Positions 14,850-49,700 of a DNA stretch of 64,000 nucleotides are shown here, one piece after another. The stretch's first letter is position 1. Each line of letters opens with the position of its first letter. A model generated the notes under the pieces. It made no database searches and had not been told where the DNA came from. It saw only the letters and a program-made list of their open reading frames with translations. Source of the DNA: Astropecten irregularis. Lineage: Eukaryota; Echinodermata; Asteroidea; Paxillosida; Astropectinidae. The stretch is taken from positions 8,066,745 to 8,130,744 of the forward strand of contig OZ020262.1 of the NCBI GenBank assembly GCA_963971285.1. The letters run 5' to 3'. The position numbers and the translations under genes are program-made.

Positions 14850-14884
14850 AAAGTGGTGCTGTGACCTAATGTTCCAAGGTAGTC

Positions 14885-24778: not shown

Positions 24779-26043
24779 TTACCCAGGGAAAAGACGTACA
24801 TGTTGTGTATATGGGAATTGATTCAATAATTAGCACATCGTATGTTTTATAAATGGCCATCACCATATCATACAAAACTCTGTTCACAAACAAAAACACA
24901 TGTACGAATCCATGGATCATTGCAGTTTTTTCTTACACAACTCATCTATTAAGATGTTTTTATAAGCTTAAGAGCACCCATGAAATGACATACAATACTC
25001 CGCAACCTACGTCGACAGCATTTCGGTTAAGATTGTATGGTTTGTAAATAATATAAAAAAAGACTTGCTTGCATTGTCTATGGCAATAAACATGTAAGTT
25101 GTACATACTGTATACAATGTTTTACACATGTTTGGGGGAATTGAGTAATATCGTACCATTTTACTATGACCATTATTTTCAGGTCAATCGGGTAGCGTGA
25201 GGCAAAAAAAAAAAACCAAGTTGTTGTACGGCATGAACTTGACAGGAGCATGCCGTGGACCGTACATACTTTGACATACAATACTTACACGTACACCGAT
25301 GGACTATTCTGGTCTAGTAAGATTTTGTTTGAAAATTATTTTTAAAAAGACGTACGTGCATTGTCTATGAGGGAAAATATAGTTTTCAGCCCATGGCCCC
25401 TCGAAAATTGTTCCATCGATCATGCCCTCAAAATCCTTTTGTCGAAAACATTACGTCAACTCGCAAACATTGCGTCAACTCGTCAACATAACGTCAACTC
25501 GCAAACATTGCGTCAACTCGTAAACATTACGTCAACTCGCAAACATTACGTCAACTCGCAAACATTACGTCAACTCGCAAACATTACATCAACTCGCAAA
25601 CATTGCGTCAACTCGCAAACATTGCGGCAACTCGCAAACATTACGTCAACTCGCAAACATTACGTCAACTCGCAAACATTACGTCAACTCGCAAACATTA
25701 CGTCAACTCGCAAACATTTTGTAAATAATTCTGAAAATTCAACAGACATACGGATTCGACAATAAACATGTAAGTTTTACATACTGTAAACAATGTTTTA
25801 CACATGTTTTGGGAAATTGAGTCAATCGAGCATCACATCGTATGTTTTACTATGATCATTATTTTCCTGTCAATCGGGTAGCGTGAGAAAGATTGAACAA
25901 TTTATAAAAAACTAAGTGATGAAGTTGTCATGAATTCATATTACAATCGCCAACCTCTATTTCCCAAACCTACCAATTTTCGAGGCGATCGGCCGAATTC
26001 CTTCTATGTGTTATAATTTTTTTTTTGAAAATGATATAAAAAA
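24779..26043 (+). repeat. CATCGTATGTTTTA-type interspersed repeats
   Basis: Mosaic of modules also seen at 1-600, 17,600-18,200, 27,300-28,250 and 43,600-44,000: GACGTACRTGCATTGTCTATG, CACATCGTATGTTTTA, GGTCAATCGGGTAGCGTGA. No gene. Confidence 0.6.
25445..25720 (+). repeat. 19-bp minisatellite (about 14 copies)
   Basis: The unit CGTCAACTCGCAAACATTA is repeated head-to-tail with few substitutions (GTAAACATT, GCGGCAACT). Because three units equal 57 bases, all frames stay periodic and one stays open, producing a spurious 134-codon ORF at 25361-25765. Confidence 0.92.
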
Positions 26044-27296
26044 ACTAGACCTGTGTTTGTAGCAACAAACACTGAGCTGTTTCGCGTATGTTTTATAAAA
26101 TGTAAAAAACAAACGTACACAATTGGCCCAGGACAGAGAAATAGTTTATCAGCGGTGTCTTTATTGTTTTTAACAACTACATGTACATGTATCAGGAACG
26201 TCGTCAGTCGCCCATCAATACACGTATACAGAATCATAAACACCATGAGAAACACAGAAATGGCCGAGTCTACTATATGCCAACCCGCGTAGTATGTATG
26301 GTTGTGCATATGAGTTGTGAAAACAGCAAAATTACTGATTTTCTAGCTCGCCGTGCTCCGTTCACGTGTACACAATTGGCCCACTACCACGGATAGCCAT
26401 ATCAGCAGTCCAAAAAGTTCCAAAGCACGTGTTTTGTGTTATGTTTGACTCTAAATGGCAAAATTAATTATTCAAAAAAATTAATAAAAAATCAGGCGAT
26501 AACGTAATCGTGACGTCACCTCACAGTAGGGATACTAATACCATTTCCTACCAACCCACCAAGTTTCATTACGATCGGATGTTCGCTTATATGCGTTTCT
26601 GGGAAAAAATGGCAAAATTAAATATTCAAAAATCAATAAAATATCAGCCGATGACGTCATCGTGACGTCACTTCACATTTAGGATACTAGTACCATTCCC
26701 TACCTACCCACCAAGTTTCATCACCATCGGATATTCCCTTATATATGAATCTGAAAATCGGCTTTTTGATGACGTCATCATGACGTCACCACTTTTTGAT
26801 ATTTTATGGCACGTGCCTATAGCCCAACAAACATTTTACCGAAAGAATTTCGAAAATACGATTTGTCGTTCATGAGATATAAAGAAAAGGTCCAAAAATT
26901 GAATAATTCGTATAAAATCACACGATGACGTCATCGACACGTGACTGCAATTTTTGTCTATAACACGTCCCCATATACTTGCATACCAAGTTTGAGTTGC
27001 ATCGGACTTGCCGTTCCGGAGATAAAGAGCCCTAAAATTTGCACTTTTATGATGACGTAATTGTGCACGTGATGACGTCACGATGACGTACTTACGCGGG
27101 ACACTATTCGGGGTGGTGGTCTAACTATGTGCCAAGTATAAAGTTGATCGGAATTGGCATAATGGTAGAAGTGGCTCTTAGAAAACCCCTGTGTTATGTC
27201 TATGGGAAAAAAGTGGAAAAAGAAAAAAAAAAAAAAAAGGAAAAAAGAAAAAAAAATAACAAAAACAAAAGCTGTTCCGCCGCATGCGAAACAGCT
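26044..27296 (+). mobile_element. family-2 HINE-like element with its own matched ends
   Basis: It starts ACTAGAC. The 5' hairpin GTGTTTGT (26053-26060) pairs with ACAAACAC (26065-26072). Sub-terminal AGCTGTTTCGC (26075-26085) is the exact inverse of GCGAAACAGCT (27286-27296), the outer arm of the 3' stem-loop at 27,270-27,296. The body has GATGACGTCATCGTGACGTC-type units and an A/G-rich tract before the 3' end. The architecture is identical to family 1, but the end sequence differs. Confidence 0.8.
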
Positions 27297-28294
27297 AAAA
27301 AGACGTACGTGCATTGTCTATTAGGGACAATACAGTTTTGAGTCAACGGTCATTCGGATATCACGTCCCGGCCCAGTGCGCAAGTCAAAGTCGGGCCGCC
27401 GGCGGTTCAGCAGCGGCAAAGCGGCATCGGCACGCCGCCCATCCACCGACCGTGGTCCGCCGGTACATGGTGGTTGCCACTATAAATCGGCCGTGTAAAA
27501 CGGACCACTGTGTACTAATGGTCGTCCAGCCGACTGTATTTTGCATTGAAATAGGCCTACGGAATAGAATATTTATACAAAATTATATCGAGAACATGAA
27601 ATCACTCTGATGACACTAAAGTCTAGGGGAAAGGACATGACAATATGTCACGTAGTTTGTTCGTGTGTAAAACTGATCCTATTACCACGTACAAAAAAAC
27701 AAATTATGGATCATTGCACTCTTCCATACAACTCTTTAAGTTGTACATGTGTAGCTAATATTAACGCGACCCATAAAATGATGTACAATACTCCGCAATC
27801 TACATCGATAACATTTCGATATTTAGTGCTGGTATTTAACGATATATAAAAAGTCTTAGTACATGGAATCGTCTATGGCAAGATTATAAACGAAGTTTTG
27901 ATCGAGTCTCGCAATCCGCGGACGTTATTATGAATGTAATACACACACGTACAGTGCAGTGAATTACGTACGTACAGTGCAGTGTACATATGGGGAGAGT
28001 TGAGTCAATCGAGCATCATATGTTTTGTACATGACCATATTGTCACGTAATCTGTGTACAAAGTTAACGAGCTGTGAGAAATATTAAAAAATTCATATAA
28101 AATCTAGTCATGACGTCATGATGACGAATAGTTTCGGGAGACAACTACCCTATATGGACTTCCTTCAGACCAAGTTTGGTTAAAATCCGTTGTTTAAAAA
28201 TGGCCAAAGTGGGGTGCAGAATACCCCTGTGCTTTGTCTATGGGAATTTGGAGACAAGAAGAGGAAGAGGAAGAAGAGGAAGGAAGAAAAAAAA
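27297..28294 (+). repeat. interspersed repeat, copy of window positions 1-600
   Basis: From 27,647 it repeats 1-650 almost base for base, up to the GAAGAGGAAGAAG tract. The first part contains an unusual GC-rich patch at 27,360-27,490. It lacks a 3' stem-loop; the tandem array begins at 28,295. Confidence 0.75.
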
Positions 28295-29330
28295 ACTAGA
28301 GTTTATGGCTGTTAGAAACAGCGCATAAGGCTTTTCCGCATATGGTATTTTAAATTGATATAAAGATATATATAATATGCTATAAAAAGAAAGGGATCAT
28401 CCTCAACGGACAAATGGAAAACAAATCATGATCCTAGCTCTTACCACTCTCTAATGAGGAGCTACTTCCTGCTTGGCCGGAAGTAGAGGTCAGAAAGGTC
28501 AAGCAATGTATCACAAAGAAAGACCTTGCCTAACATTCACTTTTGGTGAAAGAATCATGATCCAATCTCTTACCACATTTAAATGAGGAGCTACTTCCGG
28601 TTTGACCGGAAGTAGAGGTCAGAAAGGTCGAGCAATGTGTCACAAAGAAATACCTTGCCTAACTTTGATATTTGGTGAAAGAATCATGATCCTATCTCTA
28701 ACCACTTTTAAATGAGGAGCTACTTCCTGTTTGACCGGATGTAGAGGTCACAGAGGTCAAGCAATGTGTCACAAAGAAATACCTTGCCTAACATTGATAT
28801 TTGGTGAAAGAATCATGATCATAGCTCTTACCACTTTTAAATGAGGAGCTACTTCCTGTTTGACCGGAAGTAGAGGTCACAGAGGTCAAGCAATATGTAA
28901 CAAAGAAAGACCTTGCCTAATATTGATATTTGGTGAAAGAATCATGATCCTAGCTCTTACCACTTTTAAATGAGGAGCTACTTCCTGTTTTACCGGAAGT
29001 AGAGGTCACAGAGGTCAAGCAATGTGTCACAAAGAAAGACCCTGCCTAACAGTCACTTTTGGTGAAAGAATCAACTTAATATCTCAAACCGTTGATTTGT
29101 TGTTGATTTTTAAAGATTTTGATTATTAAATTCAAATCGCTGGTCACATGACACCTGATGACGTCATAATGATGAAAAGTTTCGGGAGACAACTACCCTA
29201 TATGGACTTCCTTCAGACCAAGTTTGGTTAAAATCGGCTGTTTAAAAGTGACCAAAGTGGGGTCCAGAATGCCCCTGTGCTTTGTCTATGGGATTTTGGC
29301 GACAAGAAGAGGAAGAGGAAGAAGAAAAAA
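28295..29330 (+). mobile_element. HINE-like array unit 1 (5 internal repeats)
   Basis: ACTAGAG and the GCTGTT-type hairpin, then internal units with GAGGAGCTACTTCC at 28456, 28585, 28714 and 28843 (exact 129-bp period) plus one more. Then TAATATCTCAAACCGTTGAT, AAGTTTCGGGAGACAACTAC and a GAAGAGGAAG tract. No 3' stem-loop. Confidence 0.82.
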
Positions 29331-30480
29331 ACTAGAAATTGTGTCTGTTGAAAACAGAACACAAGGCTTTTCCGTTTTATAGAAAAATCAACATAACCTT
29401 ATACACACAAAGACATTTGATTAAGATCTTATGTTTTATACTTTTGAAGTATGCACCTTTAATCATACACTCACGTGACTTGGTCATATTTCTGTCACAA
29501 AGAAAGACCTTGCCTAACATTGATATTTGGTGAAATAATCATGATCCTAGCTCTTACCACTTTTAAATGAGGAGCTACTTCCTGTTTGACCGGAAGTAGA
29601 GGTCACAGAGGTCAAGCAATGTGTCACAAATGGAAGACCTTGCCTAACATTGTCTATTGGTGAAAGAATCATGATCATAGCTATTACCACTTTTAAATGA
29701 GGAGCTACTTTCTGTTTGACCGGAAGTAGAGGTCACAGAGGTCAAGCAATGTGTAACAAATGAAAGACCTTGCCTAACATTGTCTATTGGTGACAGAATC
29801 ATGATCTTAGCTCTTACCACTTTTAAATGAGGAGCTACTTCCTGTTTGACCGGAAGTAGAGGTCACAGAGGTCAAGCAATGTGTCACAAATGGAAGACCT
29901 TGCCTAACATTGTCTATTGGTGAAAGAATCATGATCAAAGCTATTACCACTTTTAAATGAGGAGCTACTTGCTGTTTGACCGGAAGTAGAGGTCACAGGG
30001 GTCAAGCAATGTGTAACAAATGAAAGACCTTGCCTAACATTGTCTATTGGTGAAAGAATCATGATCTTAGCTCTTACCACTTTTAAATGAGGAGCTACTT
30101 CCTGTTTGACCGGAAGTAGAGGTCACAGAGGTCAAGCAATGTGTCACAAAGTAAGACCCTGCCTAATAATCACTATTGGTGAAAGAATGAATTTAATATC
30201 TCAAACCGTTGATTTTTGGTTGATTTTTGAAGATTTTGATTATTAAATTTGAATTGCTTGTCACATGACACCTGAAGACGTCACAATGACGAAAAGTTTC
30301 GGGAGACAACTACCCTATATAGACTTCCTTCAGACCAAGTTTGGTTAAAATCGGCCATTTAAAAGCAGCCAAAGTGCCGTCCAGAAAAAGTCTATGGTAA
30401 CTCAAACGACAAGAAGAAGAAGAAGAAAAAAAAAAATCAGAACAAAAACAATACCTTTTCCGTTGAACACGGAAAAGCCA
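29331..30480 (+). mobile_element. HINE-like array unit 2, complete type element
   Basis: ACTAGAAATTGTGTCTGTTG hairpin. Sub-terminal GGCTTTTCCG at 29365-29374 is the exact inverse of CGGAAAAGCC at 30470-30479. The 3' stem is CTTTTCCG / CGGAAAAG with loop TTGAACA. Five 129-bp units lie inside, followed by an AAGAAGAAGAAG tract. The next unit starts at the adjacent base. This is the best reference copy for the family. Confidence 0.87.
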
Positions 30481-31504
30481 ACTAGAGTTTATGGCTGTTT
30501 GAAACTGCACATAAGGCTTTTCCGCATATGATATAAGTTGCTTGTCAATCAGATCGAATTGTGTCATTAGAAAGAACTTCCCTTACATTGACATTTGGCG
30601 AAAGAATCATGATCAAAGCTCTTACCACTTTAAAATGACTAGCTACTTCCTGTTTGACCGGAGGTAGAGGTCACAGAAGTCAAGCTATGTGTCACAAAAG
30701 AAAGATCTTGCCTAACATTGATATTTAGTGAAAGAATCATGAATTTAGCTCTTACCACTTTTAAATGAGGAGCAACTTCCGGTTTGACCGGAAGTAAAGG
30801 TCACCGAGGTCAAGTTATGTCTCACAAAGAAAGAGCTTGCATAACATTGATACTTAGTGAAAGAATCATGATCCTAGCTCTAAACACTTTTAAATGAGGA
30901 GCAACTTCCGGTATAACCGGAAGTAGAGGTCACAGGGGTCAACCAATGTGTCACAAAGAAAGACCTTACCTAACATTCACTTTTGGTGAAAGAATCATGA
31001 TCCAAGCTCTTAACACTTTTAAATGAGGAGCTACTTCCTGTTTGACCGGAAGTAGAGGTCACAGGGGTCAACCAATGTGTCACAAAGAAAGACCTTACCT
31101 AACATTCACTTTTGGTGAAAGAATCATGATCCAAGCTCTTAACACTTTTAAATGAGGAGCTACTTCCTGTTTGACCGGAAGAAGAGGTCACAGAGGTCAA
31201 CCAATGTGTCACATAGAAAGACCTTACCTATCATTGACATTTAGCGAAGGAATCAATCTAATATCTCAAACGGTTGATTTTTTGTTGATTTTTGCATATT
31301 TTGATTATTAAATTCAAATCGCTTGTCACGTGACACCTGATGACGTCATTATGATGAAAAGTTTCGGGAGACAACTACCCTATATGGACTTCTTTCAGAC
31401 CAAGTTTGGTTAAGATTGACTGTTTAAAAATTACAAAAGTGGCTCCGAGAACACCCCCGTGCTTTGTCTATGGGTTTTTGGCGACAAGAAGAAGAAGAAG
31501 AAAA
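30481..31504 (+). mobile_element. HINE-like array unit 3
   Basis: ACTAGAGTTTATGGCTGTTT start. Five to six 129-bp units, several with an intact CTTCCGG...CCGGAAG palindrome. Then TAATATCTCAAACGGTTGAT, TGACGTCATTATGATG and a GAAGAAGAAG tract. The 3' stem-loop is missing. Confidence 0.8.
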
Positions 31505-32393
31505 ACTAGAGTTTATGGCTGTTGAAAACAGCACATAAGGCTTTTCCGCATATGATATAAATTCCTTTTCAATAAGAAATTTGCCGCTAAGAACGACCTT
31601 CCCTAACATTGCCTTTTGGTAAAAGAATTATGATCCTAGCTCTTACCCCTTTTAAACAAGGAGCTACTTCCTGTTTGACCGGAAGTAGAGGTCACAGGGG
31701 TCAACCAATGTGTTACAAAGAAAGACCTTGCATAACATTTACTTTTGGTGAAAGAACCATGATCCTAGCTCTTTACACTTTTAAATGAGGAGCTACTTTC
31801 GGTTTGACCGGAAGTAGAGGTCACAAAGGTCAAGCAATGTGTCACAAAGAAAGACCTTGCCTAACATTGATATTTGGTGAAAGAATCATGATCCTAGCTC
31901 TTACCGCTTTTAAATGAGGAGCTACTTCCTGTTTGACCGGAAGTAGAGGTCACAGGGGTCAACAAATGTTTCACAAAGAAAGACCTTGCCTAACATTCAC
32001 TTTTGGTGAAAGAATCATGATCGTAGCTCTTACTACTTTTAAACGAGGAGCTACTTCCTGTTTGACCGGAAGTAGAGGTCACAGAGGTCAACCAATGTGT
32101 CACATAGAAAGACCTTACCTATCATTGACATTCAGCGAAGGAATCAATCTAATATCTCAAACGGTTGATTTTTTGTTGATTTTTGAATATTTTGATTATT
32201 AAATTCAAATCGCTTGTCACGTGACACCTGATGACGTCATTATGATGAAAAGTTTCGGGAGACAACTACCCTATATGGACTTCCTTCAGACCAAGTTTGG
32301 TTAAGATTGACTTTTTAAAAATTACAAAAGTGGCTCCGAGAAAACCCCTGTGCTTTGTCTATGGGTTTTTGGCGACAAGAAGAAGAAGAAGAA
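31505..32393 (+). mobile_element. HINE-like array unit 4
   Basis: Same plan as unit 3 with about four 129-bp units. Its distal 250 bases are nearly the same as those of unit 3 and of 51,560-51,830. It ends in GAAGAAGAAGAAG without a stem-loop. Confidence 0.8.
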
Positions 32394-33446
32394 ACTAGAG
32401 TTTATGGCTGTTGGAAACAGCACATAAGGCTTTTTCACATATGATATAAAAAGCCTTCTTAATATGATGCTACTTCAGAAATTTGTATTCTCATTCTTAC
32501 TACTTTTAAATGAGGAGCTAATTCTTCTAGGGTTTGTTAATTCTTAATTGGCATATAAAGTTTGCCCCTTTAAATCCCTGTCACGTGACACACAATGTTT
32601 GCATAGGGCCTATAAACAAAAATATAAACTCTTCCCGACTTAGATACATACCAAGTTTCAACCGAATCGGACCTAGGGTTCGTTTATTATTGATGTACGA
32701 AGTTTGCAACTTTAAGGCATTGTCATTTGACGCACGATGACGTCATGATGACGTCATTGCCTATTTTTGTTATAACACTCCACGACTTGGATACATACCC
32801 AGTTTCAACTCAATCGGACCTAGGGTTCATTTATTATTTATGTGTAAAGTTTGCTCCTTTAAGGTGTTGTCACGTGACACTCGATGACGTCACTATAAAG
32901 TCATTGCAAATTTCCGATATAACTCTTCAAGACTTAGACACATACAAAGTTTCAATCCAATCAGACCAAGAGTTCGTTTATAATTGATGAGTGAAGTTTG
33001 CCCATTTAAGACGTTGTCACGTGACACACGATGATGTCATGGTGACGTAATTGTAATTTTTTGTTTTAACACTTCCCGCCTTAGATACGTACCAAGTTTC
33101 AACCAAATCGGACCTAGGGTTCGTTTATAATTGATGTGTGAAATTTGCCCCTTTAAGGCATTGTCACGTGACACTCCATGACGTCATGATGACGAAAAGT
33201 TTCGGGAGACAACTACCCTATATGGACTTCCTTCAGACCAAGTTTGGTTAAGATTGACTGTTTAGAAATTACAAAAGTGGCTCCGAGAATACCCCCGTGC
33301 TTTGTCTATGGGTTTTTGGCGACAAGAAGAGGAAGAAAAAAAAAAAAATAACAGAACAAAAACAAAGGCTTTTCGCTTCCGCGAAAAAGCCAAAAAAAAA
33401 AAAAACAGAACAAAAACAAAGGCTTTTCGCTTCCGCGAAAAAGCCA
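32394..33446 (+). mobile_element. HINE-like array unit 5 (146-bp repeats, two 3' stem-loops)
   Basis: The body matches 23,344-24,441 with four to five 146-bp CRE/E-box units. It ends with two stacked stem-loops starting near 33,367 and 33,421 (arms GGCTTTTCGC / GCGAAAAAGCC), then AACTAG. Confidence 0.82.
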
Positions 33447-34797
33447 ACTAGAGTTTATGGCTGTTGAAAACAGCACATATGGCTTTTCCGCATATGATAT
33501 AGAATATTTCTCTAATTAAATACACATCGCTGATGTTGTTTGATTCAGCAAATAAATGATATCGTCTTCGGGAAATGATTTCTCGTTTTAATCAAAAGAG
33601 GGCGTTATTCAAAACCGTGCGCTCGGAAAATACGGGTGCAGCCAAGTAAATACATGTAGTGGCAAAATGGGTCCGCCGAGCTCATGAATAAAAGTTAAGC
33701 ACTCAATATATTTGAAATAAGAGAGTTGTGAGAGCTATGAAAATGAAGGATTGAAGAAATATGGCACTGGACCTCCTGCCCGGTCTCTGGGCTTCCATTT
33801 GTGACCATTTTTGATGCAATTGGGTGAGAAAGTGGGTCTATTTCAGCCGCTTTGCAGAGGGATGTTTTTTTTTTAATGGCTTCTTTGACTGGAGTGATCC
33901 GTACCTTGTTTTAGGGGCGGTCAGCTGAGAATGAGTATAACTCAAAAATTCAACGGTCTCCCTACCATAAAATGAAAAGAAAATGAAAGGTTACATGTTC
34001 ATCATCATTTTTCTGTGCAACTTGAACAGCTGTGAGAGTTCTGTATATTTTTTAACGATTTTTGAAGTTTGGGGATTTATCACTGTTGTCCACGGGAGTT
34101 TATTTACTTGGGTGCAACCTTACGTACTGAAAACGGTATAAGTAGATTGCTGCGCGTGCGTGGTTGTCTGGTCAAAACACGGCTCAAAATCAGCATTTAC
34201 GCTGCTTTGCTGGCAACTATGGTAAGGAAGTAAATAAAAAAACGGCATATATAATCCAGGCAATCAAACATCTAAACGCGCCTTGTATTTATGTTGTTTA
34301 AATCGTATGTTTTATTTAATGACCAATATTTTCACGTACAGAGCAACCTACATCGATAGCATTTCGATTAAGATTTGGTGCTGGTATTTAATGATATATA
34401 AAAGGAATTACGTGCAAACTATGGCAAGTGTAAACGACGTTTTGTATCACGCAATCGGACATGTGCATTGTATGTTACAAACAGTGAATTGCGTACGCAG
34501 GCCTACATGTACACTGTACATAGTGTATGGGGAATTGATCAAGCTTTATGTTTAGTACAACGACCATGTTCACGTAATCTGTGTACAAAGTGAACGGGCT
34601 AGTTTGATAATTAAAAAAAATCATATAAAATCAAGTTTTGACGTCATGATGACGAAAAGTTTCGGGGAACAACTACCCTATATGGACTTCATTCAGACCA
34701 AGTTTGGTTAAGATCGGCTGTTTCAAAGTGACCAAAGTGCCGCGGACAAAAATCTGTGTACAAAGTCTATGGGCCACAGCACAAACTCAAAAAAAAT
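33447..34797 (+). mobile_element. HINE-like array unit 6 (first of 1351-bp triplet)
   Basis: 1351 bp, nearly identical to units 7 and 8 except for the first 50 bases. There it has the GCTGTT/AACAGC hairpin, while the others have TCTGTT/AACAGA. It ends CACAAACTCAAAAAAAAT without a stem-loop. The short ORF repeated in all three copies has no recognisable domain. Confidence 0.85.
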
Positions 34798-36150
34798 ACT
34801 AGAGGTTGTGTCTGTTGAAAACAGAACACATGGCTTTTCCGCATATGATATAGAATATTTCTCATATTAAATACACATCGCTGTTGTTGTTTGATTCAGC
34901 AAATAAATGATATCGTCTTCGGGAAATGATTTCTCGTTTTAATCAAAAGAGGGCGTTATTCAAAACCGTGCGCTCGGAAAATACGGGTGCAGCCAAGTAA
35001 ATACATGTAGTGGCAAAATGGGTCCGCCGGCCGAGCTCATGAATAAAAGTTAAGCACTCAATATATTTGAAATAAGAGAGTTGTGAGAGCTATGAAAATG
35101 AAGGATTGAAGAAATATGGCACTGGACCTCCTGCCCGGTCTCTGGGCTTCCATTTGTGACCATTTTTGATGCAATTGGGTGAGAAAGTGGGTCTATTTCA
35201 GCCGCTTTGCAGAGGGATGTTTTTTTTTAATGGCTTCTTTGACTGGAGTGATCCGTACCTTGTTTTAGGGGTGGTCAGCTGAGAATGAGTATAACTCAAA
35301 AATTCAACGGTCACCCTACTATAAAATGAAAAGAAAATGAAAGGTTACATGTTCATCATCATTTTTCTGTGCAACTTGAACAGCTGTGAGAGTTCTGTAT
35401 ATTTTTTAACGATTTTTGAAGTTTGAGGATTTATCACTGTTGTCCACGGGAGTTTATTTACTTGGGTGCAACCTTACGTACTGAAAACGGTATAAGTAGA
35501 TTGCTGCGCGTGCGTGGTTGTCTGGTCAAAACACGGCTCAAAATCAGCATTTACGCTGCTTTGCTGGCAACTATGATAAGGAAGTAAATAAAAAAACGGC
35601 ATATATAATCCAGGCAATCAAACATCTCAACGCGCCTTGTATTTATGTTGTTGACATCGTATGTTTTATTTAATGACCAATATTTTCACGTACAGAGCAA
35701 CCTACATCGATAGCATTTCGATTAAGATTTGGTGCTGGTATTTAATGATATATAAAAGGAATTACGTGCAAACTATGGCAAGTGTAAACGACGTTTTGTA
35801 TCACGCAATCGGACATGTGCATTGTATGTTACAAACAGTGAATTGCGTACGTAGGCCTACATGTACACTGTACATAGTGTATGGGGAATTGATCGAGCTT
35901 TATGTTTAGTACAACGACCATGTTCACGTAATCTGTGTACAAAGTGAACGGGCTAGTTTGATAATTAAAAAAATCATATAAAATCAAGTTTTGACGTCAT
36001 GATGACGAAAAGTTTCGGGGAACAACTACCCTATACGGACTTCATTCAGACCAAGTTTGGTTAAGATCGGCTGTTTCAAAGTGACCAAAGTGCCGCGGAC
36101 AAAAATCTGTGTACAAAGTCTATGGGCCGCAGAACAAACTCAAAAAAAAT
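34798..36150 (+). mobile_element. HINE-like array unit 7 (second of triplet)
   Basis: 1353 bp, direct tandem copy of unit 6 with few substitutions (for example an extra GGCC near 35,030). It begins ACTAGAGGTTGTGTCTGTTG. Confidence 0.87.
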
Positions 36151-37501
36151 ACTAGAGGTTGTGTCTGTTGAAAACAGAACACAAGGCTTTTCCGCATATG
36201 ATATAAAATATTTCTCAAATTAAATACACATCGCTGATGTTGTTTGATTCAGCAAATAAATGATATCGTCTTCGGGAAATGATTTCTCGTTTTAATCAAA
36301 AGAGGGCGTTATTCAAAACCGTGTGCTCGGGAAATACGGGTGCAGCCAAGTAAATACATGTAGTGGCCAAATGGGTCCGCCGAGCTCATGAATAAAAGTT
36401 AAGCACTCAATATATTTGAAATAAGAGAGTTGTGAGAGCTTTGAAAATGAAGGATTGAAGAAATACGGCACTGGACCTCCTGCCCGGTCTCTGGGCTTCC
36501 ATTTGTGACCATTTTTGATGCAATTGGGTGAGAAAGTGGGTCTATTTCAGCCGCTTTGCAGAGGGGTGTTTTTTTTTTAAATGGCTTCTTTGACTGGAGT
36601 GATCCGTACCTTGTTTTAGGGGTGGTCAGCTGAGAATGAGTATAACTCAAAAATTCAACGGTCTCCCTACCATAAAATGAAAAGAAAATGAAAGGTTACA
36701 TGTTCATCATCATTTTTCTGTGCAACTTGAACAGCTGTGAGAGTTCTGTATATTTTTTAACGATTTTTGAAGTTTGGGGATTTATCACTGTTGTCCACGG
36801 GAGTTTATTTACTTGGGTGCAACCTTACGTACTGAAAACGGTATAAGTAGATTGCTGCGCGTGCGTGGTTGTCTGGTCAAAACACGGCTCAAAATCAGCA
36901 TTTACGCTGCTTTGCTGGCAACTATGATAAGGAAGTAAATAAAAAAACGGCATATATAATCCAGGCAATCAAACATCTCAACGCGCCTTGTATTTATGTT
37001 GTTGACATCGTATGTTTTATTTAATGACCAATATTTTCACGTACAGAGCAACCTACATCGATAGCATTTCGATTAAGATTTGGTGCTGGTATTTAATGAT
37101 ATATAAAAGGAATTACGTGCAAACTATGGCAAGTGTAAACGACGTTTTGTATCACGCAATCGGACATGTGCATTGTATGTTACAAACAGTGAATTGCGTA
37201 CGCAGGCCTACATGTACACTGTACATAGTGTATGGGGAATTGATCAAGCTTTATGTTTAGTACAACGACCATGTTCACGTAATCTGTGTACAAAGTGAAC
37301 GGGCTAGTTTGATAATTAAAAAAATCATATAAAATCAAGTTTTGACGTCATGATGACGAAAAGTTTCGGGGAACAACTACCCTATATGGACTTCATTCAG
37401 ACCAAGTTTGGTTAAGATCGGCTGTTTCAAAGTGACCAAAGTGCCGCGGACAAAAATCTGTGTACAAAGTCTATGGGCCACAGCACAAACTCAAAAAAAA
37501 T
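36151..37501 (+). mobile_element. HINE-like array unit 8 (third of triplet)
   Basis: 1351 bp, direct tandem copy of units 6 and 7; the hairpin is of the TCTGTT/AACAGA type. It is followed immediately by ACTAGAG at 37,502. Confidence 0.87.
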
Positions 37502-38662
37502 ACTAGAGATTGTGTCTGTTGAAAACAGAACACAAGGCTTTTCCGTTTCCGCTTTTATTGAAAAAAATTGTCATAACCACATACACACAAAGGCAGTTGA
37601 TTATGATCTTATGTTTTATAGCTTTGAAGTGTGCACCTTTAATCAAAAACTCACGTGAACTGGTCATATTGTGTCACAAAGATAGACCTTGCCTAACATT
37701 GACTTTTGACGAAAGAATCATGATCCTAGCTCTTACCACTTTTAAATGAGGAGCTACTTCCTGATTGACCGGAAGTAGACGTCACAGAGGCCTGTCAAGC
37801 AATGTGTCACAATTGAAAGACATTGCCTAACATTGTCTATTGGTGAAATTAAGAATCATGATCATAGCTCTTACCACTTTTAAATGAGGAGCCACTTCCT
37901 GTTTGACCGGAAGTAGAGGTCACAGAGGTCAAGTAATGTTTCACAATGAAAGACCTTGCCTAACATTTTCTATTGGTGAAAGAATCATGATCATAGCTCT
38001 TACCACTTTTAAATGAGGAGCTACTTCCGGTTTGACCGGAAGTAGAGGGCACAGAGGTCAAGCAATGTAACAAAAATGAAAGACCTTGCCTAACATTGTC
38101 TATTGGTAAAAGAATCATGAGGGGAGCTCTTACCACTTTTAAATAAGAAGCTACTTCCTGTTTGACCGGAAGTAGAGGTCAAAGAGGTCAAGCAATGTGT
38201 CACAATTGAAAGACCTTGCCTAACATTGTCTATTGGTGAAATAATCATGATCATAGCTCTTATCACTTTTAAATGAGGAGCTACTTCCTGTTTGACCGGA
38301 AGTAGAGGTCACAGAGGTCAAGCAATGTTTCACAAAGAAAGACCTTGCCTAACAATCACTTTTGGTGAAAGAATAAACTTAATATCTCAATCCGTTGATT
38401 TGTTGTTGATTTTTAAAGATTTTGATTATTAAATTCAAATCGCCGGTCACGTGACACCTGATGATGTCACAATCACGCAAAGTTTCGGCAAACAACTACC
38501 CTATAGGGACTTCCTTCTGACCAAGTTTGGTAAAAATCAGCGGTTTAAAAGTGACCAAAGTGCCGCCGACAAAAACCTATGGTAACTCAAACGACAAGAA
38601 AAAGAAAAAAAAAAAAAATCAGAACAAAAACAATACCTTTTCCGAAAAAATCGGAAAAGCCA
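37502..38662 (+). mobile_element. HINE-like array unit 9
   Basis: ACTAGAGATTGTGTCTGTTG hairpin, five to six 129-bp units with more indels than elsewhere, a GACAAGAAAAAGAAA tract, and a 3' stem-loop CTTTTCCGA / TCGGAAAAG ending just before the next ACTAGAG. Both ends are present. Confidence 0.83.
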
Positions 38663-39521
38663 ACTAGAGATTGTGTCTGTTGAAAACAGAACACAAGGCT
38701 TTTCCGTTTCCGCTTTTATTGAAAAAATTGTCATTACCACATACACACAAAGAGAGTTGATTATGATCTTATGTTTTATACCTTTGAAGTGTGCACCTTT
38801 AATCATAAACTCACGTGAATTGGTCATATTTGTGTCACAAAGAAAGACCTTGCCTAATATTGACTTTTGACGAAAAATCATGATCCTAGCTCTGACCACT
38901 TTTAAATCAGAAGCTACTTCCTGTTTGACCGGAAGTAGAGGTCACACAGGTCAAGCACTGTGTCACAAATGAAAGACCTTGCCTAACATTGTCTTTTGGT
39001 GAAAGAATCATGATCATAGCTCTTTCCACTTTTAAATGAGGAGCTACTTCCTGTTTGACCGGAAGTAGAGGTCACAGAGGTCAAGCAATGTGTCACAATT
39101 GAAAGACCTTGCCTAACATTGTCTATTGGTGAAAGAATCATGATCCTAGCTCTTACCACTTTTAAATGAGGAGCTACTTCCTGTTTGACCGGAAGTAGAG
39201 GTCACAGAGGTCAAGTAATGTGTCACAAAGGAAGACCCTGCCTAACAATCACTTTTGGTGAAAGAATCAACTTAATATCTCAAACCGTTGATTTTTTGTT
39301 GATTTTTAAAGATTTTGATTTTTAAATTCAAATTGCTTGTCATGTGACACCTGATGACGTCACAATCACGAAAAGTTTCGGCAAACAACTACCCTATAGG
39401 GACTTCCTTCTGACCAAGTTTGGTAAAAATCGGAAGTTTTAAAGTGACCAAAGTGCCGCCGACAAAAAGTCTATGGTAACTCAAACGACAAGAAGAAGAA
39501 GAAGAAGAAGAAGAAGAAGAA
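38663..39521 (+). mobile_element. HINE-like array unit 10
   Basis: Same 5' end as unit 9 and three to four 129-bp units. It ends in a long pure (GAA)n tract at about 39,491-39,520 without a stem-loop. Confidence 0.82.
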
Positions 39522-40279
39522 ACTAGAGATTGTGTCTATTGAAAACAGAACACAAGGCTTTTCCGTTTTATGATATTCAAATAAATTGTCAAAACCTTTT
39601 ACACACAAAGACATTTGATTAAGATGTTAAGCCTATTATACTTTAAATATACTTGGTCATGTTTGTGTCAAAAAGAAAGACCTTGCCTAATATTAACATT
39701 TGGTGAAAGAATCCTGATCATAGCTCTTACCACTTTTAAATGAGGAGCTACTTCAGGTTTGACCGGAAGTAGAGGTCAAAGGGGTCAACCAATGTATCAC
39801 AAAGAAAGACCTTACCTTACATTCACTTTTTGTGAAAGAATCATGATCCTAGCTCTTACCACTTTTAAATGAGGAGCTACTTCCTGTTTGACCGGAAGTA
39901 GAGGTCACAGAGGTCAAGCAATGTGTCACAAAGAAAGACCCTGCCTAACAATCACTTTTGGTGAAAAAATCAACTTAATATCTCAAACTGTTGAATTTTT
40001 GTTGATTTTTAAAGATTTTGATGATTAAATTCAAATCGCTTGTCACATGACCTCTGATGACGTCATGATGAAAAAAAGTTTCGGGAGACAACTACCCTAT
40101 ATGGACTTCCTTCAGACCAAGTTTGGTTAAAATCGGCTACTAAAAAATGAGCAAAGTGCCGCAGACAAAATTTGTGTACAAAGTCTATACAAATTGAGGA
40201 GAAGAAGAACAAGAAGAAGAAGAAAGAAATAAAAACAGAACAAAAGTAATACCTTTTCCGATCACAATCGGAAAAGCCA
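39522..40279 (+). mobile_element. HINE-like array unit 11 (shortest)
   Basis: 758 bp with only two 129-bp units. The 3' stem CTTTTCCGAT / ATCGGAAAAG has loop CACA. Both ends are intact, so the size difference from unit 12 is mostly internal repeat number. Confidence 0.84.
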
Positions 40280-41482
40280 ACTAGAGATTGTGTCTATTGA
40301 AAACAGAACACAAGGCTTTTCCGTTTTATGATATTCAAATAAATTGTCAAAACCTTTTACACACAAAGACATTTGATTAAGATATTAAGCCTATTATACT
40401 TTAAATATACTTGGTCATGTTTGTGTCAAAAAGAAAGACCTTGCCTAATATTAACATTTGGTGAAAGAATCCTGATCATAGCTCTTACCACTTTTAAATG
40501 AGGAGCTACTTCAGGTTTGACCGAAAGTAGAGGTCAAAGGGGTCAACCAATGTATCACAAAGAAAGACCTTACCTTACATTCACTTTTTGTGAAAGAATC
40601 ATGATCCAAGCTCTTACCACTTTTAAATGAGGAGCTACTTCCTGTTTGACCGGAAGTAGAGGTCACAGAGGTCTAGCAATGTGACACAAATGAAAGACCT
40701 TGCCTAACATTGACCTTTGGTGAAAGAATCATGATCACAGCTCTAAACACTTTTAAATAAGGATCTACTTCCTGTTTGACCGGAAGAAGAGGTCACTGGG
40801 GTCAACCAATGTATCACAAAGAAAGACCTTGCCTAACATTCACTTTTGGTAAAAGAATCATGATCCTAGCTCTTACCACTTTTAAATGAGGAGCTACTTC
40901 CTGTTTGACCGGAAGTAGAGGTCATAGAGGTCAAGCAATGTGTCACAAAGAAAGACCCTGCCTAACAATCACTTTTGGTGAAAGAATCATGATCCTAGCT
41001 CTTACCACTTTTAAATGAGGAGCTACTTCCTGTTTGACCGGAAGTAGAGGTCACAGAGGTCAAGCAATGTGTCACGAAGAAAGACCCTGCCTAACAATCA
41101 CTTTTGGTGAAAAAATCAACTTAATATCTCAAACTGTTGAATTTTTGTTGATTTTTAAAGATTTTGATGATTAAATTCAAATCGCTTGTCACATGACCTC
41201 TGATGACGTCATGATGAGGAAAAGTTTCGGGAGACAACTACCCTATATGGACTTCCTTCAGACCAAGTTTGGTTAAAATCGGCTACTAAAAAATGACCAA
41301 AGTGCCGCAGACAAAATTTGTGTACAAAGTCAATACAAATTGAGGAGAAGAAGAACAAGAAGAAGAAGAAAGAAATAAAAACAGAACAAAAGTAATACCT
41401 TTTCCGATCACAATCGGAAAAGCCAAAAAAAAAAAAATCAGAACAAAAACAATACCTTTTCCGATTGAAATCGAAAAAGCCA
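40280..41482 (+). mobile_element. HINE-like array unit 12
   Basis: The first 300 bases are nearly identical to unit 11, but with about five 129-bp units. It ends with two stacked stem-loops: CTTTTCCGAT / ATCGGAAAAG, then CTTTTCCGATT / ATCGAAAAAG. Confidence 0.84.
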
Positions 41483-41677
41483 ACTAGAGGTTGTGTCTCT
41501 TGAAAACAGAACACATGGCTTTTCCGCATATGATATAAAATATTTCAAAAATTTATACACATCGCGTATTTTGTTTTTGGTTTAAAAGTGACCATGTCTC
41601 AATGTTGTTTAACCCATTATAGTCGCATGGTTAATGGATCTAGTCCCTAATTGAAGACACTGTCATTCAGTTGGACA
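41483..41677 (+). mobile_element. 5' fragment of HINE-like element
   Basis: ACTAGAGGTTGTGTCTCTTG (one hairpin base changed) and GGCTTTTCCG. The body leaves the family near 41,580, just before the DNA transposon at 41,683. Confidence 0.7.
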
Positions 41678-41682
41678 TTATA

Positions 41683-43007
41683 CAGGCGCGGATCCAGGAT
41701 TTTTCAAGACGGGGGGCACACTCAAAGTGAAACCTCTGAATGTCAATTTTCCCTACCTCCATGGTACATGGACGAAGATCCAATGAAGCGCCTATATACA
41801 TGTACATGCGTGTCATACAGGGGGAGCAGTGGAGTACGCCGGATTTTTCCAAGGGGGTGTTTAAAAGAAAAACATTGCGAAGCCGCTGCGTGGGGTGCGG
41901 GGCCCGCTTAAGGGCCCCGGAATTTTTTTTATCTTATATAAGCTCTGATGAATTCTAGAGTATTTCTGGGCCCTTTTTGATAGCTTTTTGACATGAAAAT
42001 AGGATGGAATTTTTTCTTTTCATTTTTAATTTAGGATTTTAGAGACATTTAACCAAAGGATTTTTATATTTTGGGATGGCAAATTTGTTTTCATACAGTT
42101 TTCATTTAGACGAAGGACCAAAATGAAATAATCATTCCACCAGTAACATTTCTTTGAACCATATTAAGAAATATGAAACAAATATATTATAAAGCCATGC
42201 CGGTTGCACCCGTTTTGAAGAAATACGGCAATTATTTTGTATCAGTTATCTGGCGGCCGCTACAAAAAACATTCACACCCCAGGCAAAGAAATGTTTTTA
42301 CGCAACCGCGAAATGTGATAATATTCACACCCGATGTCAAATAAATATATTCATCTGTCACTAATGGGCTTCCGTACAAAGCTGTGTAGTCGACACTCTG
42401 AAAATGTTTCATTTCTAAACATTCAAATGAATTGCTTTTCAATAAACATAGAATTTCCTAGAAAATCTAAATGAAATCCAGACAGAACGACGAGACATGT
42501 TCCTTTTTTTGCATGACAGAAATCGCAGTCACGGTCGTCCAGAACGAAGTCTCGGACTTCCTTTTAAAAGTAAGAACAGTGTCCATTATTTTATTTAGTG
42601 GAGTTATTAAGTGAGTGTTAGTTACTATGGTGGACTTGAGGAAGGACAATACAAGTTATGTTTGGATCACTGCTAATAAAGTGATAGGCAAGATTAGGAG
42701 AATCGTACTGTGCCGCCCATCCGTACAGTACTTGTGTTAAATCCACCACGTCTGTGTACAGTGAAAAGGAGTTTCTGTTAACGTGCGCACTGGCAAAAAG
42801 GCGAGCCGAGACATTAGCCTGTTGTCAGTTTTTCTTTGTGCGGCCGACAGAATGAACTGAAGAATGATGATTTTCTGCTCCTTCTCCCTTCTTTCTGCTT
42901 TCATTTGTTATTTCGTCAAATTTTACCGGGGGGCACAATTTTTTTTTTCCTCGCCAATTTTACCGGGGGGCACGTGCCCCCGCGGCCCACCCCTGGATCC
43001 GCGCGTG
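41683..43007 (-). mobile_element. 1325-bp non-autonomous DNA transposon with 5-bp TSD (copy 2, inverted)
   Basis: Inverted, nearly identical copy of 18,692-20,016. The ends are CAGGCGCGGATCCAGG and, inverted, CACGCGCGGATCCAGG. Direct repeats TTATA lie at 41678-41682 and 43008-43012. Two copies with different 5-bp duplications establish the target-site length. No transposase is recognisable. Confidence 0.88.
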
Positions 43008-43084
43008 TTATACCATGACATCATTATGATGACGTTGGAGGACCTGGGTGCTTTTGAGGATACATCATTATGCAAATGACACAA

Positions 43085-43530
43085 AATCATTTTGCGAGTA
43101 CAAAATAGTTAGCGTATACAACATCATTAACAAAAACAACATCATTAGCCAATACAAATTCATTTGTGAATACAAATTCATTTGCAAATAGAAAATCATT
43201 GGCGAACACAAAATCATTTGCGAATACAAAATCATTTATTGCCAGTACGTAATTATTTTGTGTATTCATTTGTCGAAGACGATATCATATGCGAATACGG
43301 AAAATTATTTTATATTCGTTAATAATGATCTTCTTCGACTTTCTTGAAGGCGATATCAGATGCGAATAGAAATCATTTGCAAATACTAATTCATATGTGA
43401 ATACAAAATCATTGTGCATATTCGCATAATCGTCTACGACAAATGATTGCGTGAAGATGACATCTTTTGCGAATTGAAATCAATATCGAATACCAATCAT
43501 TTGGAGAACATGATTGCATGAAACGTATTT
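43085..43530 (+). repeat. degenerate 17-18-bp tandem repeat
   Basis: Variants of AAATCATTTGCGAATAC recur, most regularly at 43,130-43,235 and scattered to 43,505. The reverse strand reads as repetitive FVFAND-type peptide, which is not a gene. Confidence 0.75.
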
Positions 43531-44228
43531 GCCTCCATGTAATGAACTTCAGTATTAAACTGATTGCCACGTATAGAAAAACACGCCTACAAGGTCTAGG
43601 GGAAAGGACGTGACATTTACTTGTTCATGTGTAAAACTGTATGATCAAATTGCCACGTACAAAAAGACAAAGTCTATGGATCTTTGCAGTTTTCCTATAC
43701 AACTCTTTCCAAGTATTACATGTACAACTTAATATTATTAAGTTGTACATGAATTTACTTAACACGACCCATAAAATGACGTACAATACTCCTCAACCTA
43801 CATTGAAAACATTTAGATTAAGATTTTGGATGCTGGTATACGTACGTGCATTGGCAAGATGAAATACGAGTTGTAAGTCACGACATTGTTTTACACAGGG
43901 AAAGATTGACGTAGGTACAGTGTATGAGAATTCCCGAATTCGAGCAACATAATGTTTTGTACATGACCATTAATTTCACGTAAACTGTGTACAAAGTTAG
44001 AGACCAGTAAATAGGTTCAAATCAGTCCGCAGAGCTCATTAATTTTTTGTATACCCTCAAAATGTTTCTTTATAAGAACATTTTCTGAACCTTACATGGG
44101 AATTCCTGTAGAACACAATTAAACAACTTGGTCACTAGAGTTTGGACTTTTACTTTTAAGTTGTTTGGATGAAATCCGACCCTAAATTCGCTCTACTTTT
44201 GCATGCAGTGGAGGGATAATCCAGACAA
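43531..44228 (+). repeat. diverged interspersed repeat
   Basis: 43,600-43,990 resembles 1-400 and 27,640-28,040 (AAAACTGTATGATC, CGACCCATAAAATGACGTAC, ACATAATGTTTTGTACATGA) but with many changes. The remainder leads into the 910-bp array without a recognised 5' end. Confidence 0.55.
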
Positions 44229-47200
44229 GCCAAAAATACAAGTTTTCGAACTTTAGAGGGCGTCTTACCATTTCTTTTATACGCAGTCGGAAAATTCGAA
44301 AGGCTTGCGGCGTGCATTTTCTGAACAAGTCATGCAACGCAGGGCTCCCCAAATGCCTTGAAATGAAATATTTTTAGGGTATACACAAAATGTATGAGCT
44401 GGCGAACAGAATTGGGCCTATATGCAAGTCTTGTCCCGGTAATGAAGATGCGCGCATACCGTAAAGTTAGAATTTGCTAGAGATAAAGAAAGCTTACAAT
44501 TTTCATAAAATCGTAAAAAATTCAATCAAGATGCCGTCGTGTCGCCGTTTCACATTTAGCATCCCGGACACACATACTTAATACCCACTAATTTCCATGA
44601 CGATCGGACAATGTCTTCATGACGATCGGCCTATCGGCTATTGTGTTACCAAAATCTCATTTTGATGACGTTATGATGACGTCACAGTATTTTGCTCCGA
44701 AAATGTTGATCTCTGTTGCACATTTAAGAATTACAAAAAGAATTTTAAAGATTCCATCTTTCGTTCACTAGTTATCGTTAAAATAACTTTAATGACCCAA
44801 ATATTCAATAAATCATAAGAAATCGGAGGATGACGTCATGATGACGTCATTGCAATTTTTTGATATAACACTTCCCGACTTAGACACGTACCAAGTTTCC
44901 ACTCAGTCGAACCAAGGGTTCGCTCATAATTGGCATGCGAAGTTTGGCCATTTATGGCACTGTCACGTGACCCATGATGACGTCATGATGACGAAATTGT
45001 TCGGCACACATCCGCACTATAGGGACTTTGTTTTGACCAAGTTTGGCTGATATTGGCTGTTTAAAACTAAACAAAGTGGGGTGTAGAAAGTCTGTGCACA
45101 AGCCTATGACAGAACAAAAAGAAAAGCTTTTCGCTTCCGCGAAAAAGCCAAAAATACAAGTTTTCGAACGTTGAGGGCGTCTTACCAATTTTCGTTTGCA
45201 GTCCGGAGAAGACTTGCCGGCGTGCATTTTCTGAACAAGTCATGCAACGCAGGGCTCCCCAAATGCCTTGAAATGAAATATTTTTAGGGTATACACAAAA
45301 TGTATGAGCTGGCGAACAGAATTGGGCCTATATGCAAGTCTTGTCCCGGTAATGAAGATGCGCGCATACCGTAAAGTTAGAATTTGCTAGAGATAAAGAA
45401 AGCTTACAATTTTCATAAAATCGTAAAAAATTCAATCAAGATGCCGTCGTGTCGCCGTTTCACATTTAGCATCCCGGACACACATACTTAATACCCACTA
45501 ATTTCCATGACGATCGGACAATGTCTTCATGACGATCGGCCTATCGGCTATTGTGTTACCAAAATCTCATTTTGATGACGTTATGATGACGTCACAGTAT
45601 TTTGCTCCGAAAATGTTGATCTCTGTTGCACATTTAAGAATTACAAAAAGAATTTTAAAGATTCCATCTTTCGTTCACTAGTTATCGTTAAAATAACTTT
45701 AATGACCCAAATATTCAATAAATCATAAGAAATCGGAGGATGACGTCATGATGACGTCATTGCAATTTTTTGATATAACACTTCCCGACTTAGACACGTA
45801 CCAAGTTTCCACTCAGTCGAACCAAGGGTTCGCTCATAATTGGCATGCGAAGTTTGGCCATTTATGGCACTGTCACGTGACCCATGATGACGTCATGATG
45901 ACGAAATTGTTCGGCACACATCCGCACTATAGGGACTTTGTTTTGACCAAGTTTGGCTGATATTGGCTGTTTAAAACTAAACAAAGTGGGGTGTAGAAAG
46001 TCTGTGCACAAGCCTATGACAGAACAAAAAGAAAAGCTTTTCGCTTCCGCGAAAAAGCCAAAAATACAAGTTTTCGAACGTTGAGGGCGTCTTACCAATT
46101 TTCGTTTGCAGTCCGGAGAAGACTTGCCGGCGTGCATTTTCTGAACAAGTCATGCAACGCAGGGCTCCCCAAATGCCTTGAAATGAAATATTTTTAGGGT
46201 ATACACAAAATGTATGAGCTGGCGAACAGAATTGGGCCTATATGCAAGTCTTGTCCCGGTAATGAAGATGCGCGCATACCGTAAAGTTAGAATTTGCTAG
46301 AGATAAAGAAAGCTTACAATTTTCATAAAATCGTAAAAAATTCAATCAAGATGCCGTCGTGTCGCCGTTTCACATTTAGCATCCCGGACACACATACTTA
46401 ATACCCACTAATTTCCATGACGATCGGACAATGTCTTCATGACGATCGGCCTATCGGCTATTGTGTTACCAAAATCTCATTTTGATGACGTTATGATGAC
46501 GTCACAGTATTTTGCTCCGAAAATGTTGATCTCTGTTGCACATTTAAGAATTACAAAAAGAATTTTAAAGATTCCATCTTTCGTTCACTAGTTATCGTTA
46601 AAATAACTTTAATGACCCAAATATTCAATAAATCATAAGAAATCGGAGGATGACGTCATGATGACGTCATTGCAATTTTTTGATATAACACTTCCCGACT
46701 TAGACACGTACCAAGTTTCCACTCAGTCGAACCAAGGGTTCGCTCATAATTGGCATGCGAAGTTTGGCCATTTATGGCACTGTCACGTGACCCATGATGA
46801 CGTCATGATGACGAAATTGTTCGGCACACATCCGCACTATAGGGACTTTGTTTTGACCAAGTTTGGCTGATATTGGCTGTTTAAAACTAAACAAAGTGGG
46901 GTGTAGAAAGTCTGTGCACAAGCCTATGACAGAACAAAAAGAAAAGCTTTTCGCTTCCGCGAAAAAGCCAAAAATACAAGTTTTCGAACGTTGAGGGCGT
47001 CTTACCAATTTTCGTTTGCAGTCCGGAGAAGACTTGCCGGCGTGCATTTTCTGAACAAGTCATGCAACGCAGGGCTCCCCAAATGCCTTGAAATGAAATA
47101 TTTTTAGGGTATACACAAAATGTATGAGCTGGCGAACAGAATTGGGCCTATATGCAAGTCTTGTCCCGGTAATGAAGATGCGCGCATACCGTAAAGTTAG

Positions 47201-49699: not shown

Positions 49700-49700
49700 A

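Follow-up and report, generated by a model that had tools for sequence, protein, structure and literature searches.

How do long head-to-tail arrays of rolling-circle transposons arise? For Helitrons, such arrays have so far been ascribed to bypassed termination, and hence to concatemers. The question is raised again by a stretch of the genome of Astropecten irregularis (GenBank assembly GCA_963971285.1; 168 contigs, 475.7 Mb in total). We analysed 64,000 nucleotides of contig OZ020262.1, here called the window (C27:8066745-8130744; position 1 is its first letter). A previous annotation, made from the letters alone, had noted twelve rolling-circle-type elements in a gap-free array, and suggested repeated insertion at one junction or concatemer formation (the original prediction). 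We find that the array is very probably a stack of non-autonomous Helentrons. The stack would have grown chiefly as elements inserted, one after another, into those already present, in many cases within the A-tract that precedes the 3' hairpin. A number of junctions are accounted for by concatemers or amplification.

We detected starts of the array units, which we call family 1, using a 44-bp 5' module with 37 informative positions. All twelve predicted ACTAGA starts (28295, 29331, 30481, 31505, 32394, 33447, 34798, 36151, 37502, 38663, 39522, and 40280) are present, with 0-3 mismatches to the 37 positions at every start, and the gap-free layout across them is real. The array is longer than was noted. 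It spans ~23344-52179 and holds 17 family-1 starts; additional starts are at 23344 and 24442, upstream of the twelve, and at 49701 and 50952, downstream. The supposed incomplete thirteenth element, at 41483, has an exact start but is no fragment: it extends to 49700, with a 1.3-kb insertion and 910-bp repeats. The only other module match in the window is at 704, and all matches are on the + strand. The array is flanked by CATGTACATAGAAAA on the left (at 23344) and AATAAACCTGTG on the right (at ~52179). Genome-wide, the first 27 letters of the module, with up to one mismatch, have 1699 copies, compared to 0 for a reversed-pattern control. Hence, the module is not a chance match. As predicted, units vary in body and in internal repeat number (the repeats are 129 bp long). 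Solitary copies have the same limits; the single family-1 units at loci L021 and L036 each have an ACTAGA start and one 3' hairpin.

The junctions between units are of three kinds. Only at five of the twelve does a start directly follow the hairpin end of the previous element, as had been claimed for all; here, hairpin and start are fused (GCCA/ACTAGA, before 30481, 33447, 38663, 40280, and 41483). Four starts (29331, 31505, 32394, and 39522) follow an (AAG)n or A tract without a hairpin. The remaining three (34798, 36151, and 37502) follow CTCAAAAAAAAT, the fixed end of a class of 1351-bp units. We extended this comparison to a wider set, comprising the window and 19 loci (20 fetched stretches of up to 10 kb each; L022 and L023 are contiguous). 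Among 98 family-1 starts in this set, 27 adjoin a hairpinless (AAG)n/A tract, 26 are exact fusions, and 23 follow the 1351-bp-class end. A further 7 come after a hairpin plus A-tract, and 15 after host or other sequence, although at least two of these (window 24442 and L028 5439) also split tails. Across the genome, we counted 252 exact end-to-start fusions, 129 starts directly 3' of GAAGAA, and 365 hairpin-to-hairpin joints; note that the patterns used for these counts, and for counts of starts, differ in strictness. Repeated insertion at the same junction was a close description, but the A-tract upstream of the 3' hairpin is the site about as often as the element end (27 versus 26 of 98).

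Since this A-tract is often the insertion site, elements are nested and displaced hairpins lie downstream, in last-in-first-out (LIFO) order. In split units, beyond the newcomer's own hairpin, we find the rest of the A-tract, a CAGAACAAAAACAA linker, and a hairpin. A simple scheme would produce this arrangement. Insertion would take place at A/A on the element strand (T^T on the other strand), without target duplication. Each event would split the resident, leaving its body and part of the A-tract upstream, and the remaining A-tract and hairpin downstream, of the newcomer. Repeated splitting would generate hairpinless units upstream and runs of hairpins, in LIFO order, downstream. Insertion at a boundary A/A would instead fuse end to start exactly, whether or not the two elements are of one family. 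With a strand-specific target, a newcomer using a landing pad on the resident's strand would have to take the resident's orientation. Nested insertions would then look like a head-to-tail tandem, because the same-strand A-tract would force the same orientation. Orientation is nearly uniform: among the first 100 starts listed, all on contig C1, 31 of 33 neighbouring pairs less than 3 kb apart are co-oriented (uniform spread predicts ~0.8 such pairs). The base before the start is A in 75 of 98 cases and T in 21, where T is the last letter of the 1351-bp-class end in the cases shown. At L025, 8 A's are left in a split unit and 7 A's plus a T stand before its closer, compared with 14 A's in the unsplit relative. 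Such counts would be expected if one A belongs to the element, and would fit insertion without target duplication. We infer the temporal order of events, the strandedness of the target and its exact position from these patterns.

To read the nesting, we treated starts as opening brackets and hairpins as closing brackets, paired LIFO, and counted the 910-bp repeats once. The scan has two known blemishes; the start at L039 1201 may be misread as 1351-bp class and one L033 hairpin was missed. The features of the array are as follows, where P and Q are hairpin types.

23344-24441, + strand: first unit of the second array, with split tail; LIFO closer 52089-52128.
24442-28294, + strand: unit with split tail and a family-3 Helentron in its body; LIFO closer 52041-52080.
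26044-27296, + strand: complete family-3 element, with start ACTAGACCTGTGTTTG and hairpin AGCTGTTCCGCCGCATGCGAAACAGCT.
28295-29330, + strand: unit with tail split by the next unit; LIFO closer 51993-52032.
29331-30480, + strand: unit with its own P hairpin (30438-30479), then an exact fusion.
30481-31504, + strand: unit with split tail; LIFO closer 51940-51979.
31505-32393, + strand: unit with split tail; LIFO closer 33406-33445.
32394-33446, + strand: unit with its own Q hairpin (33352-33391), then the closer of 31505.
33447-37501, + strand: three 1351-bp-class units (33447, 34798, and 36151), 98% identical, with no hairpin and the fixed end given above.
37502-38662, + strand: unit with its own P hairpin, then an exact fusion.
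38663-39521, + strand: unit with split tail; LIFO closer 41439-41481.
39522-41424, + strand: sister units 39522 and 40280, joined end to start.
41483-49700, + strand: larger unit with a 1.3-kb foreign insertion (41683-43007) and 910-bp repeats, each ending in a hairpin.
49701-50951, + strand: unit with its own P hairpin (50905-50946).
50952-51932, + strand: last unit, with its own Q hairpin (51893-51932).
51940-52179, + strand: five further Q hairpins, four of which close upstream split units; that at 52140 is without an open partner.

The window has 14 units outside the 1351-bp class. Eight are closed by their own hairpin and six are split (23344, 24442, 28295, 30481, 31505, and 38663). All six split units are closed by LIFO pairing, with only the hairpin at 52140 left over, and the P or Q type of the closers, read by eye, fits the bodies. 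In the wider set, 28 hairpinless units outside the 1351-bp class precede another start and there are 31 extra hairpins; LIFO pairing joins 16 of each. For the 15 pairs with a readable tail, we compared the closer with the hairpin subtype of the nearest unsplit body. The total edit distance is 11 and 8 of the 15 are exact matches. When closers were shuffled, the mean was 102 and the minimum 28, so that 0 of 50000 shuffles reached 11. A first version of this test, with n=16, gave 0 of 20000 shuffles; one of its units was a misread 1351-bp unit.

Several observations weigh against strict nesting throughout. The loci were picked as the best matches to a single unit and are not a random sample. Shuffling closers only within each locus is a weaker test, where 1015 of 50000 shuffles reach the observed value. 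Similarly, the bracket order in the window is weak evidence, since 7% of random orders with the same hairpin counts also satisfy it. For 4 of the 15 tested units (23344, 24442, 28295, and L026 3948), as many as 12-15 edits separate the unit from its closest unsplit body. In the wider set, 12 of the 28 hairpinless units and 15 of the 31 extra hairpins are without LIFO partner. From 91 hairpins scored, 68 close a start, 18 find nothing open, and 5 clash in type (four in L037 and one in L034). The 111 starts scored comprise 68 that are closed, 20 in the 1351-bp class, and 23 that stay open. Cutting loci at 10 kb explains part of these unmatched brackets. Individual loci are also discordant. In L024, 5 hairpins accompany 2 starts, and the sequence to their left is apparently host; in L037 closers outnumber open starts, with the four type clashes and an unclosed family-2 start; L034 is without one closer and L033 has two like hairpins in a row. 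Because L024 and L037 contradict strict nesting, hairpin modules must also be duplicated, or units lost.

Could all hairpin runs then result from slippage or duplication of a ~50-bp hairpin module? The surplus hairpins of L024 and L037, the like pair in L033, and the 15 extra hairpins with no partner are all as this explanation predicts. Conversely, 16 extra hairpins do have an upstream split unit, and the 15 tested fit its subtype. Furthermore, the hairpins of L041 alternate between two families and include three family-1 subtypes, and the single-unit loci have one hairpin each. We consider module duplication unlikely as a general replacement for nesting.

Two further families occur in the arrays; family 2 has 870 starts genome-wide. 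Four loci (L026, L034, L037, and L038) show a tail of another family interrupted by family-1 units. Brackets are complete in two: family 3 encloses family 1 in L026, and family 2 encloses family 1 in L038, each with one more unmatched closing hairpin beyond the brackets. The other two are less favourable. L034, where family 2 encloses family 1, is short of one inner closer; in L037, no closer for the family-2 start lies within the 10 kb fetched. At C2:521000-523000 (L041), six hairpins alternate F1-F3-F1-F3-F1-F3 between family 1 and family 3, and those of family 1 are of three subtypes. A family-3 element on C2 has its tail split by the 1351-bp unit that opens the run there. Insertion precisely at the boundary of an element, as the original prediction envisaged, is also seen between families. 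Thus, a family-2 end is fused exactly to a family-1 start in 13 copies, 10 without mismatch (control 0). Three of the 13 are within 7 kb on C14 and so not all need be separate events. A fusion of this type cannot come from a circle of one element. Separately, we note that C2:533500-542400 (L043, L045, and L046) contains a family-3 element with its tail split by a run of 1351-bp units; upstream are pieces of reading frame that, by eye, resemble a helicase.

Serial insertion best explains the array because units are split, closers match by subtype in LIFO pairs, families enclose one another, and families are fused to one another. On the sequence evidence, the runs of hairpins, the near-uniform orientation and an autonomous relative with the same ends are in keeping with this. 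The competing proposal is a rolling-circle concatemer, where replication continues past the 3' hairpin and the multimer integrates at once. In favour are the 252 exact fusions genome-wide, a regular array on C15 with a 1247-bp step, and tandem Helitron arrays in bat and silkworm that, in the accessible part of one account, are ascribed to bypassed termination (PMC4067079). The sister units 39522 and 40280 also fit. They are 97.6% identical over the first 451 bp and 96.1% over the last 616 bp, and have in common an unusual hairpin variant found in no other unit of the window. However, fusions account for five of the twelve junctions, four others have no hairpin and their matching-subtype hairpins are found downstream, neighbours are mostly unlike in body, and two-family fusions exist. 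Hence, a concatemer is not a good description of the array as a whole, and we judge it quite improbable in that role. For the sister pair, and for runs of 1351-bp units, a concatemer is possible.

The 1351-bp class also bears on amplification. The original prediction excluded a single amplified monomer. Most units are indeed diverse, but 33447, 34798, and 36151 are 98% identical and 1351-1353 bp long; part of the array therefore does resemble an amplified monomer. The 17-bp exact end of the class has 254 copies (control 1), and end plus ACTAGA also has 254. Hence, no exact copy ends elsewhere. The neighbour that follows is variable, with five kinds of leader distinguished by eye in 19 cases, and L041 a further case. 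The 5' module of the class is of type T or G, on bodies ~95-99.8% identical, save one copy in L035 at ~92%. A unit with no 3' end would follow from mobilisation of a composite, from leftmost start to first hairpin, as an accessible account proposes for Fusarium (PMC5148889), or from a circle that has lost its terminator, a suggestion made for plant Helitrons (cited in the accessible part of PMC12628747). Taken singly, these two routes leave unexplained how the joint can be invariant while the neighbours are diverse; both facts would follow from recombination within the 44-bp module that the units share, or from joining at the nick site. It is conceivable, if doubtful, that two features act together: a strand-specific landing pad carried by the elements, giving a readable stack of mixed families, and a 1351-bp class that, having no terminator, uses the 5' nick site of the next element as both terminator and joining point.

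Monomer amplification exists in this genome, given the regular C15 array. At C15:18410732-18419523 (parts of which are in L042 and L044), exact fusions recur six times at a 1247-bp step, the initial step being 1309. Three to four hairpin-like modules are present in each monomer read; hence, a composite was amplified. Unequal crossing-over, or segmental duplication of a founding unit, might by extension account for the whole array in the window. The 98% identity of the 1351-bp units, regular runs of this class elsewhere (nine ends on C2), five 910-bp repeats only 0-3 bases apart, and the varying number of 129-bp repeats would all follow. Against this, most units differ in body, repeat number and 3' type, and such mixed units exclude it as sole cause; a family-3 element lies inside the array; and bracket order is not predicted. 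As a complete account we regard it as very improbable. Two related observations concern steps and repeats. At C11:16338849-16349745, ends of 1351-bp units are at steps of 1340, 1364, 1364, and 1369, with this set present twice in a row, and the pattern is higher-order and satellite-like. The 910-bp repeats, at 45155-49700 of the window, number five, after a more diverged first copy, and each has a Helentron-type hairpin end. L023, on C15, also has hairpins with this tail, spaced at a 909-bp step.

An artefact of assembly is exceedingly unlikely. While the region is rich in repeats, the same architecture is found on 11 contigs with diverse units, and contigs are up to 39 Mb.

What are the units? 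The rolling-circle assignment was correct, and can be made specific because an autonomous relative adjoins the array. Its features are as follows.

663-703, + strand: 3' hairpin end of a preceding unit, fused GCCA/ACTAGA to the autonomous Helentron.
704-20224, + strand: autonomous Helentron, with the 5' module and 3' end of the array units and a 1.3-kb foreign insertion (18692-20016).
2896-12255, + strand: 3119-aa open frame (stop to stop) with OTU, DUF6570, Helitron_like_N (HUH Rep), PIF1 helicase, and C-terminal endonuclease.
20232-20274, + strand: second hairpin (P type), 3' of the autonomous element; if the elements are nested, it would belong to a unit lying to the left of the window.

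Pfam matches in the 3119-aa frame include Helitron_like_N (3.2e-35), PIF1 (2.6e-28), and Exo_endo_phos (5.5e-07). Hence, HUH Rep, PIF1-type helicase and C-terminal endonuclease are present in one protein, as is characteristic of Helentrons. The OTU cysteine protease domain, which has been reported in Helentrons, is found too (PF02338, 2.5e-09). The Rep part matches the Helraiser structure 7lcc (1.3e-18) and the helicase part matches PIF1 chains. There are 682 relatives of the protein; the 120 listed share ~49-63% identity and include sea urchin, crinoid, scallop, abalone, hemichordate, hagfish, and fish entries. The frame contains RGSPHTH and two tyrosines, which we take to be the HUH motif and its tyrosines.

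The ends of this element are those of the units. Its 5' module has 0 mismatches to the unit consensus, a Q hairpin is at 20185, and the subterminal block is at 20033. There are subterminal inverted repeats; the 5' sequence GGCTTTTCCG and the right arm of the 3' hairpin, which is CGGAAAAGCC in the P type, are reverse complements (1 mismatch for the Q type). Families 2 and 3 have the same complementarity between 5' repeat and 3' hairpin, each with its own sequence. The 3' stem-loop expected of a HINE is present in the units, and absent, as a class, from 1351-bp units. Judged on sequence, 704-20224 is a Helentron and, because they have the same ends, the array units are its non-autonomous HINEs. 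The 3119-aa protein would presumably mobilise them. Two other identities were rejected. Canonical Helitrons (Helitron1) are defined, in the accessible text, by 5' TC, 3' CTRR, and insertion between A and T (PMC4067079), whereas the ends here are ACTAGA and GCCA. Helitron2 elements, according to the same source, have palindromes at both ends and no endonuclease (PMC4067079); hairpins are present at both ends here, but the autonomous element has an endonuclease domain. A 1325-bp sequence in the autonomous Helentron (18692-20016, +) is found inverted in unit 41483 (41683-43007, -), with 99.9% identity, and is probably a recent element. The 5' part of the Helentron includes, by eye, an imperfect inverted repeat with arms of ~70 bp (AAGCCTTATCGCAAATACCGCC..., 1590-1745), and 80-bp tandem repeats are at 12693-13673, just 3' of the frame.

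The 5' module folds into an 11-pair hairpin with one bulged A. Among 98 modules, two pairs switch on both sides with 0 broken cases (G-C 66 / A-T 32, and T-A 69 / G-C 29). Taking the 25 commonest distinct modules, which represent 91 of the 98 copies, 95.6% of cells are paired. The percentage paired, the number of double-change cells, and the covariation score exceed all 500 shuffles and every slide. Conversely, two measures are not above chance: shuffles are at least as high as the observed count of doubly changed pairs in 439 of 500 cases, and as that of pair types in 500 of 500. Note that the covariation rests on few independent events. Palindromes at both ends are described for HINE and DINE-1 in the accessible parts of earlier work (PMC4067079, PMC2374699). 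The covarying 5' hairpin, with the family-specific match between 5' repeat and 3' hairpin, provides concrete targets for work on recognition of Helentron ends.

Maize Helitrons are reportedly also found inserted near other Helitrons. The array itself is made of elements of a known kind, arranged with unusual legibility; we interpret it as serial, largely nested insertion plus local amplification. As far as the accessible text goes, Helentrons, HINEs and DINE-1 (PMC4067079, PMC2374699) are alike in combining Rep/helicase with endonuclease, with OTU reported, and in having subterminal inverted repeats, palindromes at both ends, a 3' stem-loop with compensatory changes, and internal tandem repeats. 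They also use a TT target without duplication, as we propose here. Those parts describe neither a landing pad in an A-tract 5' of the terminal hairpin nor long LIFO stacks of mixed elements. The first of these sources does mention distantly related Helitrons that directly adjoin one another in bat and maize (PMC4067079). The oyster Cg_HINE is, in the accessible portion of its description, a HINE with satellite-like central repeats, a preference for T-rich sites and no target duplication, but with no mention of bracket-like nesting (PMC7492417). For composite Helitrons of Fusarium, self-insertion giving several 5' ends and one 3' end is proposed in the available part of the report (PMC5148889); these are few cases, whereas here the site is recurrent and displaced 3' ends are stacked. 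Truncated centromeric Helitron arrays of plants resemble the 1351-bp runs in having multiple 5' ends and a single 3' end (Xiong et al. 2016, as outlined in accessible text of PMC12628747); in contrast, our 3'-less unit is in every case followed directly by an ACTAGA start, and its neighbours on that side are diverse. Tandem dimers of transposable elements can arise from repeated insertion at a preferred site (McGurk and Barbash, again as outlined in PMC12628747). In the array, each element brings the preferred site with it, and the order of insertion can still be read. Our literature search, which covered few subscription papers, found no description of stacked hairpins from nested Helitrons, and neither PMC2575219 nor PMC3789558 contains any of the terms sought.

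Most of one long array, and parts of others, can thus be read as serial insertions, with the order of events kept in the hairpin stack. The choice between concatemer and serial insertion thereby becomes testable junction by junction. Nesting also suggests why such arrays are co-oriented and mixed, and how satellite-like arrays can start. Finally, two open frames downstream of the array, at 56305-57865 (-), may represent pieces of a retrotransposon pol gene, which they resemble.

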